Part shown: positions 180 through 64,000 of the stretch, piece after piece | Numbering within the stretch: position 1 is the stretch's first letter | Layout of the letters: each line of letters begins with the position of its first letter | Source of the DNA: Rhodanobacter sp. T12-5 | GTDB lineage: Bacteria; Pseudomonadota; Gammaproteobacteria; Xanthomonadales; Rhodanobacteraceae | Reading direction: 5' to 3' | NCBI RefSeq assembly: GCF_008329435.1 | Contig: NZ_NPKN01000001.1 | Span: 868,001 to 932,000 of the forward strand | Length of the DNA: 64,000 bases | Made by a program: the position numbers and the translations under genes | Notes under the pieces: model-generated | What the model saw: only the letters and a program-made list of their open reading frames with translations | The model's database searches: none | Told to the model about the DNA's origin: nothing

Positions 180-568
180 TGGGCACGTTGGCGCTCATGC
201 TTGCTGCGGCCCCGGCGGCGACGCCGGAGTTCAATGCTGCCGGCGAACTCGTTCGCGTGGTGCTGAGCCTGCTCGGCATCATCGGCCTGATCCTGGCCGC
301 CGGCTGGCTCACTCGCCGGATGCAGCGCCGCCACGGCGCGGCCGGGCGGCGCATCCGCTGCGTCGAATCGTTTGCGGTGGGCGCGCGCGACCGGCTGCTG
401 CTGCTGGATGCCGATGGCAAGCGTCTGCTGATCGGCATGGGTCCGAGCGGCATGCAGACCCTGCACGTCTACGACGGCACGCCCGAGCCTGTCGCGGCGG
501 AACCGCCGGTCGCGCCGCCGATGCCGGCATTCGGCGACCTGCTGGCCCGCTGGAAGCGCGCCTCGTGA
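179..568 (+). CDS. fliO: Flagellar biosynthetic protein FliO
   Basis: Small membrane protein (129 aa) that helps assemble the FliP ring of the flagellar type III export gate. A short hydrophobic N-terminus is followed by one clear membrane segment at about residues 26-44, then a basic cytoplasmic domain with the family-typical region [19 protein letters not shown] and a Pro/Ala-rich tail. FliO is poorly conserved, but length, topology and position between fliN and fliP fit. It starts inside the fliN stop codon and ends overlapping the GTG of fliP by 4 bp. Confidence 0.9.
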
Positions 569-1320
569 AGGCGCGCCACTGGATCATGGCCGGCGTGCTG
601 CTGTTGCTGCCGCTGGCGTCACTGGCGGCGGTGCCGACGGTACCGGGCATTCCGCTGGTGAACGTGCAGCACACGCCCGATGGCGGGCAGAGCTGGACGA
701 TGTCGTTGCAGGTGCTTGCGTTGATGACGGCGTTGACGTTGTTGCCGGCGATCGCGCTGATGATGACCTCGTTCACCCGCATCATCATCGTGCTCGGTTT
801 CCTGCGCCAGGCGCTGGGCACGCAATCGACGCCGCCGAACCAGGTATTGCTGGGCCTGGCCTTGTTCCTCACCCTGTTCGTCATGTCGCCGGTACTCAAC
901 CGCGCGTATGTCGATGGCGTGAAGCCGTACATGGACGGCCAGATCACTGCCGAGCAGGCGCTGCCGGCCGCCTCGGCGCCATTCAAGCGTTTCATGCTCG
1001 ACCAGACGCGCGACGCCGACCTACAGTTGTTCACCCGGCTGGCCAGGGAGAAGCCGTACGCCAGCAAGGCCGACGTGCCGTTCAAGGTGGCGATGCCGGC
1101 GTTCCTCACCAGCGAATTGAAGACCGCGTTCCAGATGGGCTTCCTGCTGTTCATTCCGTTCCTGATCATCGACCTGGTGGTCGCCAGCGTGCTGATGTCG
1201 ATGGGCATGATGATGGTCTCGCCGATGATCATCTCGTTGCCGTTCAAGATCATGCTGTTCGTGCTGGTCGATGGGTGGACGCTGTTGCTCGGCACACTGG
1301 CGGGGAGTTTCTACACGTGA
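565..1320 (+). CDS. fliP: Flagellar export-gate protein FliP
   Basis: Core subunit of the flagellar type III export gate in the inner membrane (251 aa, family-typical length). It has an N-terminal signal-like segment (residues 1-21), then hydrophobic helices separated by a periplasmic loop, with family stretches [20 protein letters not shown] and [18 protein letters not shown]. The GTG start overlaps the fliO stop (GTGA). Normally fliQ follows within a few bases; here about 985 bp of non-coding repeat sequence follows the stop, so coupling to fliQ is broken. Confidence 0.97.
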
Positions 1321-1342: not shown

Positions 1343-1662
1343 TTCTGCGGGAGCGGTTTCAGCCGCGATTGCTGTTTGTTCTTGTTGTTTCAGAGCGAAG
1401 AGCTTTCGTGCTCCTGCGGAGCGCGAGTTACTTTCTCTTTGTGTGGCCAAAGAGAAAGTAACCAAAGAGAAAGGCCACCCCGCTTGGCGCTTGCCGCCCA
1501 TCCATGGGCGGCAAGTCCGTGAGTCGGGGCCGGGCTTTTCGATCGGACTCCTGTCCGAGCGAAAAGGAGCCGACATCCTGTCGGCTCCCCCTTTGGGGCC
1601 TGTCGTCCCCGCCTCACCGCCGCACAGGGGCCCCGGTAGAGCAGCGGGCCATCCTGGCCCGC
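1343..1662 (+). repeat. Multi-hairpin repeat array, left copy
   Basis: A chain of perfect or near-perfect hairpins: a REP-like head (1347-1372); GCTCC/GGAGC (1410-1422); a 15-bp stem of GTTACTTTCTCTTTG and its complement with loop TGTGGC (1427-1462); a 10-bp stem with loop ATCCAT (1490-1515); a 6-bp stem with loop TCCT, extended past one mismatch to 13 bp (1535-1566); a 9-bp stem with loop ATCCT (1566-1588); and a 7-bp stem with loop ATCCT (1644-1662). Between the last two lies a conserved GC-rich segment (ACAGGGGCCCCGGTAGAG). A diverged copy lies in opposite orientation at 1955-2273. Confidence 0.88.
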
Positions 1663-1899
1663 ACTCGGTGCGCAGCGGCTGCGCCGCCGCCAATGCGGAA
1701 GAGCGTGTGGCTTTGTCGTTTCCCCAAACTCCCGTTCACCCTGAGCGCAGCTCGCGTCAGCGAGCGGAGTCGAAGGGCCATGCTGAGCGAACCCTTCGGC
1801 TCCGGCCTTGCGGACTACGCTCAGAGCCTGCCGCGGACTCGATCCGGGGGCGAACGATGGGAGTTGCGAGTGATTTTGTTATGCCTCGGCGTGCTCCTT

Positions 1900-1924
1900 G
1901 TAGGAGCCCGCTTGCGGGCGATGC
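1900..1924 (+). repeat. REP-like element
   Basis: GTAGGAGCCCGCTTGCGGGC followed by GATGC: a short head (GTAG) plus a hairpin (GCCCGC/GCGGGC). It is nearly identical to both halves of the palindrome at 43706-43771. REP elements of this shape are dispersed by RAYT transposases; none is encoded in the window. Confidence 0.7.
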
Positions 1925-1954
1925 CTTTGCTTTTGATCGCGCTCTTCCCGGAGT

Positions 1955-2273
1955 GCACGCAGGATGCGCGCCGCTCTACCGGGGCCCCTGTGCGGCGGTG
2001 AGGGACGGACGACAGGCCCGCAGGGTGATCGGCAGGGATGCCGATCATTTTTCGTCAGGGCAGGATGCCCTGTCGAAAAACCCGGCCGGCCCTCACGGAC
2101 TTGCCGGGCATGGATGCCCGGCAAGCGCCAAGCGGGGTGGCCTTTCTCTTTGGTTATCTTTCTCTTTGGCCACGCAAAGAGAAAGTAACTCGCCCTCCGA
2201 AGGAGGACGAAAGCTCTTCGCCCTAAAACAGCAGGAACAAAGAGCAATCGCGACTGAAGTCGCTCCCACAAAC
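1955..2273 (-). repeat. Multi-hairpin repeat array, right copy (inverted)
   Basis: Read on the minus strand, this repeats the left copy element by element: REP (2244-2269), CCTCC/GGAGG (2194-2206), the 15-bp CTTTCTCTTTG stem with a one-base insertion (2153-2189), the 10-bp stem with loop ATCCAT (2100-2125), a 6-bp stem with loop ATCCT extended past one mismatch (2048-2080), a 7-bp stem with loop ATCCCT (2027-2046) and an imperfect hairpin with loop ATCCT (1955-1971). Stem sequences differ from the left copy at many positions but still pair, while loops are nearly unchanged. Confidence 0.88.
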
Positions 2274-2305
2274 GAGCGGTGCGCAAGCATCGCCGGAGCC
2301 GCCTC

Positions 2306-2575
2306 ATGACCCCTGAATCCATCATGGAAATCGGCCAGCACGCGCTGTACGTGGCGATGCTGGTGGCCGCGCCGCTGCTGTTGACCGCGCTGGCGGTGGG
2401 TCTGCTGGTGGGCGTGATCCAGGCGGCCACGCAGATCAACGAAATGACGCTGAGCTTCATTCCGAAGCTGATTGCGATGGCACTGGTGGCGCTGGTCACC
2501 GGACCGTGGATGTTGCGCCTGCTGGTGCAGTACACCACGCATCTGATCGAGAGCCTGCCGGGGGCGGTCAGATGA
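2306..2575 (+). CDS. fliQ: Flagellar export-gate protein FliQ
   Basis: Export-gate subunit of 89 aa with two hydrophobic hairpin helices (about residues 15-40 and 51-75). I chose the ATG giving MTPESIMEIG, the usual FliQ N-terminus; an in-frame extension upstream reads into the repeat insert and is not protein-like. The stop overlaps the fliR ATG by 4 bp (ATGA). No strong Shine-Dalgarno is visible (GCCGGAGCC lies about 6 bases upstream), and the gene follows the repeat insert, so it may be expressed from readthrough or from an unrecognised promoter. Confidence 0.95.
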   Translation: MTPESIMEIGQHALYVAMLVAAPLLLTALAVGLLVGVIQAATQINEMTLSFIPKLIAMALVALVTGPWMLRLLVQYTTHLIESLPGAVR

Positions 2576-57648: not shown

Positions 57649-57725
57649 TGGGGCGTCGCCAAGCTGGTTAAGGCACGGGATTTTGATTCCCGCATACGCA
57701 GGTTCGAATCCTGCCGCCCCAGCCA
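57649..57725 (+). tRNA. tRNA-Gln (anticodon TTG)
   Basis: Cloverleaf of 77 nt including encoded CCA: acceptor TGGGGCG/CGCCCCA, anticodon loop TTTTGAT in the stem CGGGA/TCCCG, T-arm GCAGGTTCGAATCCTGC. It lies between ispE and prs, the conserved position of glnX-type tRNA in gammaproteobacteria. Confidence 0.97.
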
Positions 57726-57757
57726 TTTCATGATGGCTTCCGTTTCGAGGTAACACC

Positions 57758-58717
57758 GTGGACACGTCCACCCCGATGATGCTGTTTACCGGTAACGCCC
57801 ATCGTGCGTTGGCGGAGGATGTCGCCCATCGCCTGGGCGTGCCGTTGGGCAAGGCACTGGTCGGCACGTTCAGCGACGGCGAAGTGCAGATCGAGATCGA
57901 GGAGAACGTACGCCGCCAGGAAGTGTTCGTGATCCAGCCGACCGGCGCGCCGAGCGCGGTCAACCTGTTCGAGCTGCTGGCGCTGACCGATGCGTTGAAG
58001 CGCGCCTCCGCCGCCAGCGTCACCGCGGTGATCCCGTACTTCGGCTACGCCCGGCAGGATCGCCGGCCGCGCTCGGCGCGGGTGCCGATTACCGCCAAGC
58101 TGGCCGCGCGGATGATCGGCGCGGCGGGCGTCGACCGGGTGCTGACGGTCGACCTGCATGCCGACCAGATCCAGGGCTTCTTCGACATTCCGGTCGACAA
58201 CGTGTACGCCTCGCCGGTGCTGTTGGCCGACATCTGGCGCAACCACAGCATGGACGACCTGATCGTGGTCAGCCCGGACGTGGGCGGCGTGGTGCGCGCG
58301 CGCGCGATCGCCAAGCGGCTGGACGACGCGGACCTGGCGATCATCGACAAGCGCCGTCCGCGCGCGAACGTTTCCACCGTGATGAACATCATCGGCGACG
58401 TGGACGGCAAGACCTGCGTGATGGTCGACGACATCGTCGACACCGCCGGCACGCTGTGTGCGGCGGCTGCGGCCCTGAAGGAGCGCGGCGCCCGCAAGGT
58501 GGTTGCCTACTGCGTGCACCCGGTGCTGTCGGGCGCGGCGATCAGCAACATCGAAGGCTCCCAGCTCGACCAGCTGGTGGTCACCAACACCTTGCCGCTG
58601 CGCCCGGAAGTGCAGGCCTGCGCCAAGATCCGCCAGCTCTCGGTCGCCGAGCTGCTGGCCGAAACCATTCGCCGCATCGCCTTTGGCGAGTCGGTGAGTT
58701 CGCTGTACGTGGATTGA
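57758..58717 (+). CDS. prs: Ribose-phosphate pyrophosphokinase
   Basis: PRPP synthetase (319 aa) making phosphoribosyl pyrophosphate from ribose-5-phosphate and ATP for nucleotide, His and Trp synthesis. [40 protein letters not shown] and the PRPP loop [17 protein letters not shown] are diagnostic. GTG start with GAGG upstream; 32 bp after tRNA-Gln. Confidence 0.97.
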
Positions 58718-58831
58718 TCCATTGATTTTCGCCGTGGCGGCTCGGCCGTCCGGCACCACCGGCTTTTCTGGTCGCGGAAAAGTCACGCAACTGCCGCGAG
58801 GCGGTTCTTAAAAAACCAAGGTAGTAACAAC

Positions 58832-59527
58832 ATGTCCAAGACTCATGAAATCAAGGCGCAAAGCCGCAAGGACGAGGGGAAAGGTGCGAGCCGCCGCCTG
58901 CGTCGTGCCGCTTTCGTGCCTGCCGTTGTCTACGGCGCCGGTCAGGCTCCGGAAAGCATCCAGATCGAACACAACACCATCCTGCTTGCCGCCAAGCACG
59001 AGTGGTTCTTCTCCTCGATCCTCGATCTCAACGTCGATGGCAAGGTGCAGAAGGTGCTGGTGCGTGACTGGCAGAAGCATCCGTTCAAGCAACTGATGAT
59101 GCACATGGATTTCCTGCGCATCGACGAGAACGCCAAGCTCCGCGTCAACGTGCCGCTGCACTTCCTCAACCAGGAAACGTCGACGGCCGGCAAGACGTCG
59201 GGCGTGGTGATCTCGCACAACCTGACCGAAGTGGAAATCTCCTGCCTGCCGAAGCATCTGCCCGAGTTCATCGATCTGGATCTGGGCGCGCTCCAGGCTG
59301 GCGACATCATCCATCTGTCCGACCTGAAGTTGCCGGCCAACGTCGAGTTGCCGGCGCTGCAGCTGGGTGAGGATCACGACATCCCGGTGGTCACGGTGAA
59401 TGTGGTCAAGGAAAGCGCCGCCGATGCTGCGGAAGACGCTGCTGCCGAGGCTGAGGCCGAGGCGAACAAGGCTGCCGCCGCCAAGCCTGCCAAGGCTGCC
59501 GCCAAGCCGGCTGGCGACAAGAAGTAA
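58832..59527 (+). CDS. rplY: 50S ribosomal protein L25 (general stress protein Ctc form)
   Basis: Long-form bL25 (231 aa): N-terminal 5S rRNA-binding domain (AQSRKDEGKGASRRLRRAAF; VPAVVYGAGQAPESIQIEHN) plus the C-terminal TL5/Ctc domain, and a low-complexity Ala/Lys/Glu tail of about 40 residues (AAEAEAEANKAAAAKPAKAA). Conserved order prs-rplY-pth. The 114-bp leader after prs ends in a run of A residues (TTAAAAAACC) before the start; no riboswitch recognised. Confidence 0.96.
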   Translation: MSKTHEIKAQSRKDEGKGASRRLRRAAFVPAVVYGAGQAPESIQIEHNTILLAAKHEWFFSSILDLNVDGKVQKVLVRDWQKHPFKQLMMHMDFLRIDENAKLRVNVPLHFLNQETSTAGKTSGVVISHNLTEVEISCLPKHLPEFIDLDLGALQAGDIIHLSDLKLPANVELPALQLGEDHDIPVVTVNVVKESAADAAEDAAAEAEAEANKAAAAKPAKAAAKPAGDKK

Positions 59528-59535
59528 GCCACGCA

Positions 59536-59566
59536 AAGTCCCGCGCTCGGTGCGGGCGCGGGACTT
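59536..59566. promoter_or_regulatory. Strong hairpin in the rplY-pth gap
   Basis: An 11-bp perfect stem, AAGTCCCGCGC / GCGCGGGACTT, with a 9-nt loop occupies most of the 50-bp gap. No T-run follows; it could be a partial terminator/RNA-processing stem or an element occluding the pth ribosome site (pth starts 11 bases after the stem). Confidence 0.5.
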
Positions 59567-59577
59567 CGTGGTCGATC

Positions 59578-60180
59578 ATGGCTGGATTGCAGCTCATTGT
59601 CGGACTGGGCAACCCCGGTGCCGAATATCTCCGAACCCGGCACAACGCCGGGTTCTGGTTTGTGGACGCTCTCGCCAGCGGGCAGGGCGAGCGCTTCGGT
59701 TTCGACGGCAAGCTGCATGGCGAAACCTGCCGGGTACGCATCGGCGGCCAGCCGGTATGGCTGCTCAAGCCGGCCACCTTCATGAACAAGAGCGGCATCG
59801 CCGTGGTCTCGGCGCTGCGCTACTACAAGATCGAGCCGGAGCAGTGCCTGATCGCGCATGACGACCTGGACCTGCCGCCCGGCACCGCGCGCCTGAAGTT
59901 CGACGGCGGCCACGGCGGCCAGAACGGCCTGCGCGACATCATGGCGCACCTTGGCCACGGCAAGTTCCATCGCCTGCGCGTGGGCATCGGCCATCCCGGC
60001 CACCGCGACCAGGTCACGCCATGGGTGCTGGGGCGGCCGTCGGCCACGGACGAGGACGCGATCCTCGACGGCATCGCGCGTGCGCTGGACGTGCTGCCGC
60101 TGGCGGTGGAAGGCCAGTTCGACAAGGCGATGCAGCAGTTGCATACGACGGGAACGGGAAATGGGGAACGGGGAACGTAA
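59578..60180 (+). CDS. pth: Peptidyl-tRNA hydrolase
   Basis: Pth (200 aa) cleaves peptidyl-tRNA released from stalled ribosomes. LIVGLGNPGAEYLRTRHNAG includes the catalytic His; PATFMNKSGIAV, HDDLDLPPGTARLKF and GGHGGQNGLRDIM follow the family. The last eight or so residues (GTGNGERGT) are encoded by GGGAACG-type dispersed repeat sequence and are absent from typical Pth, so the native end was probably replaced by the repeat. Confidence 0.96.
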   Translation: MAGLQLIVGLGNPGAEYLRTRHNAGFWFVDALASGQGERFGFDGKLHGETCRVRIGGQPVWLLKPATFMNKSGIAVVSALRYYKIEPEQCLIAHDDLDLPPGTARLKFDGGHGGQNGLRDIMAHLGHGKFHRLRVGIGHPGHRDQVTPWVLGRPSATDEDAILDGIARALDVLPLAVEGQFDKAMQQLHTTGTGNGERGT

Positions 60181-60255
60181 GCGCCCGATCAAGGGCTGCA
60201 ACGTCCACGCCTCCCCCCACTTCATGTTCCCGGTTTCTCATTCCCTGTTTCCCGG
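60150..60255. repeat. GGGAACG tandem/inverted repeat spanning the end of pth
   Basis: GGGAACGGGAAATGGGGAAC plus GGGGAACG (60150-60178) in the last pth codons faces GTTCCCGGTTTCTCATTCCC plus TGTTTCCCGG (60226-60255) just upstream of ychF: an imperfect inverted repeat with a ~47-nt centre. The layout matches the two other repeat families in the window. Confidence 0.72.
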
Positions 60256-60264
60256 AGTTCCACC

Positions 60265-61353
<1,089 letters not shown>

Positions 61354-61665
61354 CGAGCGGAAGCACCGCAGACCCAGCCAGGCAACTGAGCCGGCGCGCC
61401 TTCAGCCCCGGCACCGATCCTGGAAGCGCGAAGACGCCCGTCTGGAGTCGCGACGGCAAGCGGCCGGCGCACGCCGCCGTCCGCGCGCTCGGCCTCCGGC
61501 TTGCCTTGCGCAAGGGCTACGCCGAGCTGAAGGGCGTCGAGGCTGCCACGCGATCGATTCGGGCCTGGATCTGGCTGCCTGCATGAGCTGCCAGGGCGGC
61601 GGCCTCGTGATCGTGGCAGCCAAGGCATAATCACCGGCCCAAACGCCCCCTCGAGATGCCGCCCC
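61354..61665. other. 312-bp gap after ychF, nothing recognised
   Basis: An open frame continues through this stretch but has no plausible start or ribosome site and gives Arg/Ala-rich shadow sequence. No terminator, tRNA or repeat seen. It may hold the promoter of the downstream thioesterase gene. Confidence 0.5.
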
Positions 61666-62154
61666 ATGTCCGGACAACAGCACGAAGTGACATTCCGCTT
61701 CCTCGCCCAGCCTACCGACGTCAATTTCGGCGGCAAGGTGCACGGCGGCATGGCGATGAAGTGGATCGACCAGGCCGGTTACGCCTGTGCAGTGGGCTGG
61801 AGCGGTGCATATTGCGTCACCGCGTCGGTCAGCGGCATCCAGTTCGTGGCGCCGATCCTGATCGGCGACCTGGTCACGGTGCGGGCACGACTGATCCATA
61901 CCGGCACCAGCAGCATGCACATGGCAGTCGACGTGCTGGCGCGCGACCTGCGCAAGGATGAGCAACGCCTGGCGACCAGTTGCGTGATGGTGTTCGTGGC
62001 GCTCGACAGTCCGGACGGCAAGCCGACCCCGGTGCCGCGGTGGGAGCCTCGCGATGAAGGGGAGCGGCTGCTGCAGGCGCAGGCGAAACGGCTGCTGGAA
62101 TTGTCCAAGGGGATGGAGCAACTGGTCGACCTGCGCGCTGCATCGCCGGGCTGA
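61666..62154 (+). CDS. Acyl-CoA thioesterase (YciA/hotdog type)
   Basis: Single hotdog-domain thioesterase of 162 aa. FLAQPTDVNFGGKVHGGMAM and KWIDQAGYACAVGWSG carry the catalytic Asn/Asp region of the acyl-CoA hydrolase (YciA/BACH) group; SGIQFVAPILIGDLVTVRA and the C-terminal helical tail agree. Hydrolyses acyl-CoAs of unknown chain length. Just upstream of the tRNA-tuf promoter. Confidence 0.9.
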   Translation: MSGQQHEVTFRFLAQPTDVNFGGKVHGGMAMKWIDQAGYACAVGWSGAYCVTASVSGIQFVAPILIGDLVTVRARLIHTGTSSMHMAVDVLARDLRKDEQRLATSCVMVFVALDSPDGKPTPVPRWEPRDEGERLLQAQAKRLLELSKGMEQLVDLRAASPG

Positions 62155-62192
62155 CAACTCCGCAGAAAATCGCGTATACGGGCGACGAGGTG

Positions 62193-62221
62193 TTGACAGT
62201 TCAGGGCCCGATCCACACAAT
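62193..62221 (+). promoter_or_regulatory. Sigma-70 promoter of the tRNA-Tyr/Gly/Thr-tuf operon
   Basis: Consensus -35 TTGACA (62193-62198), 17-bp spacer, -10 CACAAT (62216-62221, four of six matches). The expected start about seven bases on is just upstream of tRNA-Tyr. The GC-rich bases after the -10 (ACGCG) fit a stringently controlled stable-RNA promoter. Confidence 0.8.
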
Positions 62222-62235
62222 ACGCGTTCTTTGTT

Positions 62236-62321
62236 GGAGGGATACCCAAGCGGCCAACGGGGGCAGACTGTAAATCTGCTGGCTTACGCCTTCGGTGGTT
62301 CGAATCCACCTCCCTCCACCA
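62236..62321 (+). tRNA. tRNA-Tyr (anticodon GTA)
   Basis: Class II tRNA of 86 nt with long variable arm: acceptor GGAGGGA/TCCCTCC, anticodon in GACTGTAAATC, T-arm GGTGGTTCGAATCCACC, encoded CCA. Confidence 0.97.
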
Positions 62322-62381
62322 GTGTTGCAAGTGGTACCACGCGACGTGAAAGCGGCGCGGCCAGCAAGAGTTCCGCGCAGG

Positions 62382-62455
62382 GCGGGAGTAGTTCAATGGT
62401 AGAACATCAGTTTTCCAAACTGATTACGCGGGTTCGATTCCCGCCTTCCGCTCCA
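62382..62455 (+). tRNA. tRNA-Gly (anticodon TCC)
   Basis: 74 nt: acceptor GCGGGAG/CTTCCGC with one G-T pair, anticodon loop TTTCCAA, T-arm CGGGTTCGATTCCCG, encoded CCA. Confidence 0.97.
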
Positions 62456-62487
62456 TTGCGCTGCATCTGCCAGTACACCAAATACAC

Positions 62488-62563
<76 letters not shown>

Positions 62564-62638
62564 TTTCACGGCCGTCACGGCCAGCCCCGAAACGGGCAGG
62601 TTCCTTCAACTCATCGACTCCATCGGGGTTTAGCGCGC

Positions 62639-63829
62639 ATGGCAAAGGGTAAATTCGAACGCACCAAGCCGCACGTCAACGTCGGCACGATTGGTCACGT
62701 GGATCACGGCAAGACGACGCTGACGGCAGCGCTGACGAAGGTCGGTGCAGAACGTTTCGGTGGCGAGTTCAAGGACTACAGCGCGATCGACGCGGCGCCG
62801 GAAGAGAAGGCGCGCGGCATCACGATCTCGACCGCCCACGTGGAATACGAGTCGCCGGTGCGCCACTACGCGCACGTGGACTGCCCGGGCCATGCGGATT
62901 ATGTGAAGAACATGATCACGGGTGCGGCGCAGATGGACGGCGCGATCCTGGTGTGCTCGGCCGCGGACGGCCCGATGCCGCAGACGCGCGAGCACATCCT
63001 GCTGTCGCGCCAGGTCGGCGTGCCGTACATCGTGGTGTTCCTGAACAAGGCGGACATGGTCGACGACGCCGAGCTGCTCGAGCTGGTCGAGATGGAAGTG
63101 CGCGAGCTGCTGAGCAAGTACGACTTCCCGGGCGACGACACCCCGATCATCCACGGTTCGGCGCTGAAGGCGCTGGAAGGTGACCAGAGCGAAATCGGCG
63201 TGCCGTCGATCATCAAGCTGGTGGACGCGCTGGACAGCTACATCCCGGAGCCGGTGCGCACGATCGACAAGCCGTTCCTGATGCCGGTGGAAGACGTGTT
63301 CTCGATTTCGGGCCGCGGCACCGTGGTGACCGGTCGTATCGAGCGCGGCATCATCAAGGTCGGCGACGAAATCGAAGTGGTCGGCATCCGCGACACGCAG
63401 AAGACCACCGTGACCGGCGTGGAAATGTTCCGCAAGCTGCTGGACCAGGGTCAGGCAGGCGACAACGCCGGTCTGCTGCTGCGCGGCCTGAAGCGTGACG
63501 ACGTGGAGCGTGGCCAGGTGCTGGCCAAGCCGGGCACGATCACCCCGCATACGGACTTCGAGGCTGAGGTGTATGTGCTGTCGAAGGACGAGGGTGGCCG
63601 TCATACGCCGTTCTTCAAGGGTTACCGTCCGCAGTTCTACTTCCGCACGACCGACGTGACCGGCGCTTGCCAGTTGCCGGACGGTGTGGAGATGGTGATG
63701 CCGGGCGACAACGTGAAGATGGTGGTGAGCCTGATCCACCCGATCGCGATGGACGAAGGCCTGCGTTTCGCCATCCGCGAAGGCGGCCGCACCGTCGGCG
63801 CCGGCGTGGTGGCCAAGGTCATCAAGTAA
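62639..63829 (+). CDS. tuf: Elongation factor Tu
   Basis: EF-Tu (396 aa) delivers aminoacyl-tRNA to the ribosome. G1 [11 protein letters not shown]2 [15 protein letters not shown]3 [13 protein letters not shown]4 NKADM; domains 2 and 3 complete, ending [10 protein letters not shown]. It is in the tRNA-tuf-tRNA-Trp arrangement (tufB-type), with secE/nusG expected just beyond the window. Codon use is strongly biased, as for highly expressed genes. A GATTCGG repeat follows the stop. Confidence 0.99.
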
Positions 63830-63837
63830 GCTATTGC

Positions 63838-63922
63838 GGGATTCGGGATTCGGGATTCGGGATTCGGAGGGGCATCACCCTTCCGCTTTTCACGAATCCC
63901 GAATCTCGAATCCCGATTCCCG
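63838..63922. repeat. GATTCGG tandem/inverted repeat between tuf and tRNA-Trp
   Basis: Four GGATTCG units in tandem (63838-63867) face the inverse set CGAATCCCGAATCTCGAATC plus CCGATTCCCG (63893-63922), giving a ~30-bp imperfect stem with a 25-nt loop. It is the same family as 6626-6716. Confidence 0.82.
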
Positions 63923-63927
63923 TTCAT

Positions 63928-64000
<73 letters not shown>

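Follow-up and report, generated by a model that had tools for sequence, protein, structure and literature searches.

Inverted arms with a predicted pseudoknot triple helix appear to bracket exchangeable gene cassettes, mainly in Gammaproteobacteria

Introduction

Integron gene cassettes are exchangeable, mostly orphan genes lying beside folded recombination sites, decoy RNAs of the CsrB/RsmZ type carry several GGA hairpin loops per RNA, and telomerase RNA contains an H-type pseudoknot whose pyrimidine loop forms U.A-U triples in the deep groove. For another RNA family, TwoAYGGAY (RF01731), binding of the protein CsrA has been predicted, reportedly by Gardner and Eldai. In the available portions of the reports concerned, that prediction is drawn from the two loop motifs of the family (PMC4333381), which is classed as probably RNA and probably not cis-regulatory (PMC2864571, 2010). 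On the DNA side, the accessible text of Di Nocera et al. (2013, PMC3733652) describes some tyrosine transposases that are flanked by long terminal inverted repeats. Here we analyze an element that resembles each of these systems in part, found in a 64,000-nucleotide stretch of Rhodanobacter sp. T12-5 (NZ_NPKN01000001.1, positions 868,001 to 932,000; hereafter the window), where the segment 1343-1662 recurs inverted at 1955-2273.

The site lies between two open reading frames (ORFs), 565-1320 and 2279-2575, which we take to be fliP and fliQ. Each copy, hereafter an arm, shares with the telomerase RNA pseudoknot an H-type pseudoknot with a pyrimidine loop in the deep groove, but differs in its 8-9 putative consecutive triples, which to our knowledge would be long for a natural RNA, in its 11 covarying tracts and in belonging to a bacterial repeat. 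As in integron gene cassettes, the genes bracketed by arms appear exchangeable, are mostly orphan and lie next to folded ends; unlike them, each unit has two long inverted arms, the units are dispersed in the genome and no integrase was seen. The arms have several GGA hairpin loops, like CsrB/RsmZ-type decoys, but are high-copy and paired, contain a pseudoknot and yield sub-threshold Rfam matches only. They share with TwoAYGGAY two adjacent A(N)GGA(Y)-loop hairpins on the same strand, to which they add the pseudoknot, the probable triple helix, inverted pairing and cargo, features absent from the family as described in the accessible parts of PMC2864571, PMC4333381, PMC7657543, PMC11661157 and PMC11701678. 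Finally, they have REP-like outer hairpins in inverted pairs, as do repetitive extragenic palindromic (REP) sequences, bacterial interspersed mosaic elements (BIMEs), REPINs and long terminal-inverted-repeat families, but differ from these, as far as the available text of PMC3733652 presents them, in their ~250-nt arms, class-wide fold, cargo genes and lack of a transposase between the arms examined. The GGA hairpin pair and the REP-like ends are thus of known kinds; a description of the class-wide arm, the triple helix or the paired cassette was not found in the open literature, a search whose scope excluded most subscription journals and bioRxiv.

Fold of the arms

An inverted-repeat search aligned the two window arms at identities of 88% (1346-1458/2158-2270), 89% (1459-1542/2073-2156) and 91% (1596-1649/1966-2019), bearing out the inverted recurrence of ~320 bp reported in a first-pass annotation of the window. 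The stem changes quoted there are present in the letters of both copies: GCTCC/GGAGC becomes CCTCC/GGAGG, CGCCC/GGGCG becomes CGGGC/GCCCG, TCGGAC/GTCCGA becomes CAGGGC/GCCCTG, GAGCCGAC/GTCGGCTC becomes TGATCGGC/GCCGATCA, and in the REP head GCGGT/GCCGC becomes GCGAC/GTCGC. Scored on a structure derived from all aligned copies, the window arms differ more often in paired columns (31 of 140) than in unpaired ones (13 of 122; Fisher p = 0.014). Fourteen pairs are altered on both sides and still pair, none is altered on one side while pairing, and pairing is lost in two pairs, both in the long-range helix, in agreement with the earlier claim that most differences lie inside stems with pairing kept.

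From the fetched loci we extracted 108 near-full copies and aligned 107 of them, on the strand opposite to that considered in the first-pass annotation; a copy with an insertion (361 nt) and a weak copy (L040:1840-2070) were left out. With hairpins abbreviated as HP, the common order from 5' to 3' on the folded strand is HP6 (if present), then HP5 and HP4 enclosed by a long-range helix (its 5' half before HP5, its 3' half after HP4), HP3 (missing in a few copies), an H-type pseudoknot and HP1. The derived structure is paired in 95.7% of cells, with a covariation score of 0.453 against 0.151 after shuffling and at most 0.081 with partners slid. Double-sided changes occur in 49 of the 70 pairs, including 9 of the 10 pairs of the long-range helix (helix 1). 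A further column-pair scan of the same alignment ranked stem pairs at the top, among them pair 204-235 of pseudoknot stem S2 (GC in 59 copies, CG in 31, UA in 16 and unpaired in 1; covariation Z 20). This very strong covariation supports the selection on structure proposed from the window arms, and the single hairpin order, together with a model that matches across the class, supports the view that the body goes beyond a REP or BIME. The H-type pseudoknot, its mirror third strand, the kinship to TwoAYGGAY and the inverted pair as a unit had not been seen at that stage.

Loops that begin with A and contain GGA are found in HP5 and HP4 of 103/107 copies each and in HP3 of 75/107, against 0/107 for HP1, so that the two A(N)GGA hairpin loops characteristic of TwoAYGGAY are present. 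The conserved loops noted in the window stand, with the correction that the folded strand is the opposite one and its loops read A(N)GGA rather than ATCCT. Distinct stem events on the outward strand comprise 68 G.U against 35 A.C (p = 0.0015 if the events are independent), and the Rfam TwoAYGGAY matches of relatives fall on that same strand. Together these comparisons strongly suggest that function resides in the strand that, on both sides of a divergent pair, reads outward from the center.

Pseudoknot and third strand

The two crossing helices of the pseudoknot (helices 6 and 7) both covary, and in a permissive search 228 of the 255 rows parsed allowed S2 to pair over 4 or more consecutive letters. 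Stem S1 consists of a pyrimidine tract and a purine tract, and the loop ahead of it is a second pyrimidine tract. Among 200 distinct copies with asymmetric tracts (anchored, repeats removed), this loop is a perfect mirror of the S1 pyrimidine strand in 176, and no copy has a perfect direct repeat; by closeness, 184 favor the mirror, 10 the direct repeat and 6 neither. Perfect mirrors occur with 11 distinct tracts, and shuffling the loops among copies yielded a mean of 77 and a maximum of 93 perfect mirrors over 2000 trials. The set spans Methylomonas and other distant copies, and the pattern used to retrieve these distant copies fixed the stem, not the loop.

Before repeat removal, the anchored test gave 191 perfect mirrors out of 216 in overlapping sets; counted by distinct type, 16 of 27 favored the mirror, 6 the direct repeat and 5 neither, with 11 perfect mirrors and 0 perfect direct repeats. 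Unanchored tests had favored the mirror in 16, the direct repeat in 4 and neither in 3 of 23 distinct asymmetric types, and in three sets had given mirror/direct/equal counts of 14/3/2, 57/48/7 and 27/10/8; they were replaced by the anchored test because tracts holding both readings blurred them. Unparsed copies (10/107, 6/23, 16/122 and 27/62) were excluded from the mirror tests.

U.A-U and C+.G-C triples form in the deep groove with the third strand parallel to the purines, and a mirror strand has just this orientation. Because the loop mirrors the S1 pyrimidine strand with matching letters (176/200, permutation), it has the geometry needed for 8-9 consecutive triples of these two kinds, and the arm very probably folds with a triple helix of that length.

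Divergent pairs and exchange of cargo

In Methylomonas sp. LW13, 42 of the 58 copies form 21 divergent pairs whose starts lie 0.4-3.6 kb apart; other neighbors within 4 kb comprise two convergent pairs and one tandem pair. Most units in this genome have an outer hairpin GTGTCGC...GCGACAC and an inner hairpin of GGGA..TCCC type, and REP-like hairpins occur at the outer ends of the window arms and of several others. We examined the cargo of 19 of the 21 pairs, with ORFs defined by length alone. GC content is lower inside the pair than in the flanks in all 19 (smallest gap 0.01), and 17 contain an ORF of at least 80 aa. Pfam was run on 20 of the 29 inside ORFs, 4 of which matched, and on 10 of the 70 outside ORFs, 7 of which matched. 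The cargo of this genome includes an Mrr endonuclease, a PIN protein, a cupin, a DUF1152 protein and many orphans, and 9 of 20 cargo proteins from other genomes have a Pfam match. Defence-like cargo elsewhere includes CAP12/TIR, AbiU2, NERD, AAA_21, SLFN_AlbA_2 (Schlafen AlbA_2) and HNH proteins.

At one site (L320), the cassette is missing in 14 and present in 12 of 26 genomes, as expected of a mobile cassette. Twelve of the cassette-free sites are continuous by BLAST, with the outer flanks joined, and the other two have only 111-159 nt between them. Among the examples fetched (11 other filled and 6 cassette-free), no target duplication was visible by eye at this site. The boundary motif GTGTCGC is found at the left of 12/12 filled loci and GCGACAC at the right of 10/12. 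The inserts measure 1.25-3.28 kb, and their arms can be aligned across inserts, whereas the cargo falls into ten sets (nine if a weak 66-residue match is counted), with a main gene common to three inserts only. Eight of 11 comparisons show homology to L320 on the left up to 268-274, shortly after the inner hairpin (240-263); in the other 3 it extends to 413-415. The right arms of this site (8 found) resemble one another across species (0.889) more closely than they do other LW13 arms (0.80). At a second site (L317), four inserts are mutually alignable in their arms only. These comparisons make it likely that the arms are the ends of paired, exchangeable cassettes.

Three further observations concern paired arms and their surroundings. 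Across the genus of the window, arms are of two sequence types (for example in L051-L058), type A with GGGCTTTTCGAC and type B with GGGTTTGTCGAC, and A is often paired with B. A locus of the same genus holds a CAP12/Pycsar-type TIR protein (L060, 1426-2316; PADLOC PDC-S35) between two arms. An LW13 locus (L323, 868-1153) has an Rfam 5_ureB_sRNA match near a cassette that lies beside a UreD gene.

Distribution

BLAST with 1381-1662 matched 98 of 147 genomes of the family, in 20 of 26 genera. The arm model, R1, matched 89 of 369 class genomes and 72 of 272 genera at E <= 1e-4, with 7 candidates scored per genome under strict filters; at E <= 1e-5 it matched 44 of 398 phylum genomes, of which the class accounts for 41. 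Among the matches listed when named genomes were scanned with a pattern are Methylomonas, Dyella, Ectothiorhodospiraceae, Thalassocella and two Desulfobulbus-type assemblies, both of which also have R1 matches. Copy numbers in five genomes, scored on 150 candidates per genome and hence lower bounds, are at least 12 (the genome of the window), 17, 29, 43 and 85; Methylomonas sp. LW13 has 58 copies and Methylomicrobium sp. wino1 has 7. The phage collection searched contained no match to the element. The plasmid collection yielded a single 62-nt match, in an Aeromonas caviae record (NZ_AP026896.1, 395885-395944) that is 4.9 Mb long and filed among plasmids, where the pseudoknot stretch is found at 89% identity. 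Two genomes of one family (G767 and G880) have some weak R1 matches limited to model positions 4-58, which correspond to the two GGA hairpins.

Interpretation and alternatives

We consider the best overall explanation, at a probability of roughly 0.6, to be that these are exchangeable cassettes with outward-facing structured ends, probably acting as RNA. Each unit consists of two inverted arms of about 250-280 nt on either side of a central cargo slot. From the slot outward, an arm comprises HP5 and HP4 (adjacent GGA loops) within the long-range helix, HP3 (usually with a GGA loop), the H-type pseudoknot and, beyond it, HP1 followed by the REP-like terminal hairpin. Recombination through the arms, via either long homologous ends or ends acting as folded single-stranded DNA, would let the cassettes spread and exchange their cargo. 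A cargo transcript running in either direction would enter a sense-oriented arm, which could thus serve as a structured 3' untranslated region (UTR). In this position, the triple helix would delay degradation from the 3' end, and the paired GGA loops would offer possible sites for a protein of the CsrA/RsmA type. The fold, the mirror, the pairing, the insertion and the turnover of cargo are read directly from comparison of copies; that the arms work as RNA is a step further, and one that we hold to be rather more probable than its opposite. We put forward only tentatively the most complete version of this proposal: a hitherto unrecognized mobile cassette, mainly of Gammaproteobacteria, with triple-helix arms and a slot filled by arm recombination, which would supply a sense 3' UTR with CsrA-type sites for either cargo direction and so place its cargo under immediate post-transcriptional control by the host. 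If correct, this would point to a general route by which bacteria gain orphan genes and some defence-like ones, and perhaps regulate them, and would make a natural long base-triple helix available for study; the paired arms look like an overlooked means of carrying, and perhaps controlling, mobile genes.

Several results weigh against this interpretation or parts of it. Both window tracts are symmetric and hence silent on mirror versus direct repeat; the window is consistent with the mirror but provides no test of it, and the mirror rests on the other copies. For the 12 left arms of site L320, likeness across species (0.836) only just exceeds likeness to other LW13 arms (0.811), so exchange may affect the left arms too. 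No cargo gene common to the cassettes was found, and Pfam scanning of 20 of the 29 inside ORFs revealed no transposase or recombinase, although an enzyme acting in trans is possible. PADLOC detected no clear excess of defence genes inside LW13 pairs (26 scanned) over their neighbors outside (35 scanned), and enrichment of the cargo for defence genes is not supported. The cargo stop lies nearer the arm than the start in 7 of 10 cassettes only, which gives the 3' UTR role no firm positional support. HP5 alone reverses the strand bias (G.U 0 against A.C 4), and the same covariation is expected from a role as single-stranded DNA. Finally, CsrA matches are found in 313 of the 369 class genomes, and the genomes with no match are about as frequent among element-positive (12/89, some of the 12 being incomplete) as among other genomes (44/280; p = 0.73); two genomes of one genus (G363 and G468) have strong arm copies and no CsrA match at E <= 0.001. 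This absence of association leaves CsrA unsupported as a general partner, though the loops suit it, and we regard CsrA/RsmA as a possible arm ligand at somewhat less than even odds.

The alternative that survives best, although we think it unlikely, is that the arms act as DNA only: they would be large terminal inverted repeats of a transposable element, which a Y1/HUH or other recombinase recognizes in the form of folded single strands or H-DNA. The sharp outer ends (GTGTCGC...GCGACAC), the empty sites lacking a visible target duplication, the inverted pairs and the persistence of copies in genomes with no CsrA match all fit such a role, and mirror polypurine tracts suit H-DNA as well. The enzyme, however, did not appear where it was sought, either in the inside ORFs scanned or beside the terminal hairpin pattern tested, and the conserved A(N)GGA loops and G.U-biased one-strand variation fit RNA. 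Dispersal by a REP-associated tyrosine transposase (RAYT), suggested as possible in the first-pass annotation, found no support in four genomes: one (G082) lacks a Y1_Tnp match at E <= 0.001 despite its 43 or more copies, and the single strict terminal pattern tested, GTCGC..GCGACAC, was found near 0 of 11 Y1_Tnp loci (8 from LW13). The inverted REP-like terminal hairpins are thus as in REP/RAYT systems, but no cognate RAYT gene with such a repeat on its flanks was found at those loci or in G082. One of the 11 loci (L342 of LW13, 1252-1381 and 1453-1971) has a Y1 transposase gene adjoining a degenerate arm that retains the pseudoknot hairpin.

Somewhat less plausible is a dispersed decoy RNA for CsrA/RsmA, of the CsrB/RsmZ kind, amplified in the genome. 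Its appeal lies in the GGA hairpin loops, in sub-threshold matches on the outward strands of the window (RsmW, the highest, at 26.8 bits and E 0.029 where the cut-off is 52 bits, + strand, arm 2; rsmX at E 0.49, - strand, arm 1) and in the matches of related copies to TwoAYGGAY, a member of clan CL00106 for which CsrA binding is predicted in the available part of PMC4333381. Unrelated Rfam families score comparably in the window, however, all far below their cut-offs, the element does not co-occur with CsrA, and a decoy would need neither the pseudoknot nor inverted pairing nor cargo.

The relationship to TwoAYGGAY is partial. RF01731 scores below its gathering cut-off on the window arms, has no match at E <= 0.01 in four genomes of the same family (G000, that of the window, G146, G082 and G124) and reaches the cut-off in 0 of 19 LW13 loci. 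It reaches the cut-off in 2 of 10 distant loci (L164 and L170) and in 5 of 20 element-bearing genomes; at E <= 0.01 the latter count is 10, and several of these matches overlap R1 matches on the same strand (in G445, R1 and TwoAYGGAY matches at 1551654-1551806 and 1551698-1551860). Many of its matches span model positions 43-116 only. The arm therefore appears to be not a filed member of TwoAYGGAY but a larger, class-wide relative that contains it as one piece, and which is itself likely one arm of an exchangeable cassette.

A bidirectional terminator or insulator around foreign genes is improbable. The A-tract and T-tract flanking HP4, the intergenic location and the inverted pairs around AT-rich cargo are what such an element would have, but no T-run follows the outer hairpins in LW13 (by eye), and at the site of the window the pair lies inside a presumed operon, where a strong terminator would cut off fliQ. 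The C-terminus of fliP adjoins fliQ in other species (tblastn). A fliQ match was found in 30 of 40 genomes of the genus, and 28 of the 30 FliQ loci were counted, excluding two with weak FliQ matches (L159 and L160): a divergent arm pair separates the two genes in 16 of the 28, 3 have one arm truncated by the end of the sequence examined and 9 are without arms, several of these with a short fliP-fliQ gap.

A REP/BIME cluster built by nested insertions, with pairing kept by palindrome template switching rather than by selection, would account for the REP-like ends and the further REP nearby (window 1898-1924), but is highly improbable, being contradicted by the one hairpin order in 107 copies and the full-length model matches across the class and by the covarying long-range helix, pseudoknot stem and mirror strand, none of which template switching within hairpins would yield.

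The window locus

Coordinates of the window features are given in Table 1. HP6 is found in many copies of the genus and is shorter or missing in others. At this site, arm 2 is sense-oriented in the presumed flagellar transcript. No gene was recognized in the inner spacer (1663-1954), whose ends match by eye those of other pairs (ACTCGGTG; ACTC..AGAGC..GATCAA). The fliP-fliQ pair seems to have been retained through speciation, here with a slot that holds no recognized gene, and it is probably a cargo-less member of the family of paired elements bracketing exchangeable cassettes.

Table 1. Features of the paired element and its neighbors in the window. Strand refers to the window; for the arms it is the folded, outward-reading strand.
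Feature	Position	Strand	Details	Basis
fliP (presumed), left neighbor	565..1320	+		ORF
Arm 1	1343..1662	-		Inverted repeats, R1 match
REP-like terminal hairpin, arm 1	1353..1366	-	GCGG..CCGC	From sequence
HP1, arm 1	1406..1426	-		Helix 8 of covariation structure
R1 match, arm 1	1427-1590	-	167.5 bits	Model R1
H-type pseudoknot, arm 1	1427..1478	-	S1 1427-1441/1448-1462; S2 1443-1448/1473-1478; third strand 1464-1472	Helices 6 and 7 of covariation structure
HP3, arm 1	1490..1515	-	Loop ATGGAT on folded strand	Helix 5
Long-range helix, arm 1	1519..1617	-	About 1519-1529 with 1607-1617; encloses HP4 and HP5	Helix 1
HP4, arm 1	1535..1566	-	Loop AGGA	Helix 4
HP5, arm 1	1567..1587	-	Loop AGGAT	Helix 3
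HP6, arm 1	1644..1662	-	Inner-end hairpin	Alignment of copies
Inner spacer	1663..1954		Cargo position	By eye
Arm 2, inverted	1955..2273	+		Inverted repeats, R1 match
R1 match, arm 2	2023-2189	+	170.1 bits	Model R1
HP5, arm 2	2026..2046	+	Loop AGGGAT	Helix 3
HP4, arm 2	2048..2080	+	Loop AGGAT	Helix 4
HP3, arm 2	2100..2125	+	Loop ATGGAT	Helix 5
H-type pseudoknot, arm 2	2137..2189	+	S2 2137-2142/2168-2173; third strand 2143-2151; S1 pyrimidine strand 2158-2167, purine strand 2176-2185	Helices 6 and 7 of covariation structure
HP1, arm 2	2190..2210	+		Helix 8 of covariation structure
REP-like terminal hairpin, arm 2	2250..2263	+	GCGAC..GTCGC	From sequence
fliQ (presumed), right neighbor	2279..2575	+	ATG at 2306	ORF

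The inner spacer also contains a GTAG-type REP (TTGTAGGAGCCCGCTTGCGGGCGATGC) at 1898-1924 and, at about 1738-1778 near this REP, a sequence resembling a dispersed repeat. At the gathering cut-off, Rfam matches in the window were limited to tRNAs; five tRNA genes (Gln, Tyr, Gly, Thr and Trp) lie in 57649-64000, the last one at the end of the window.

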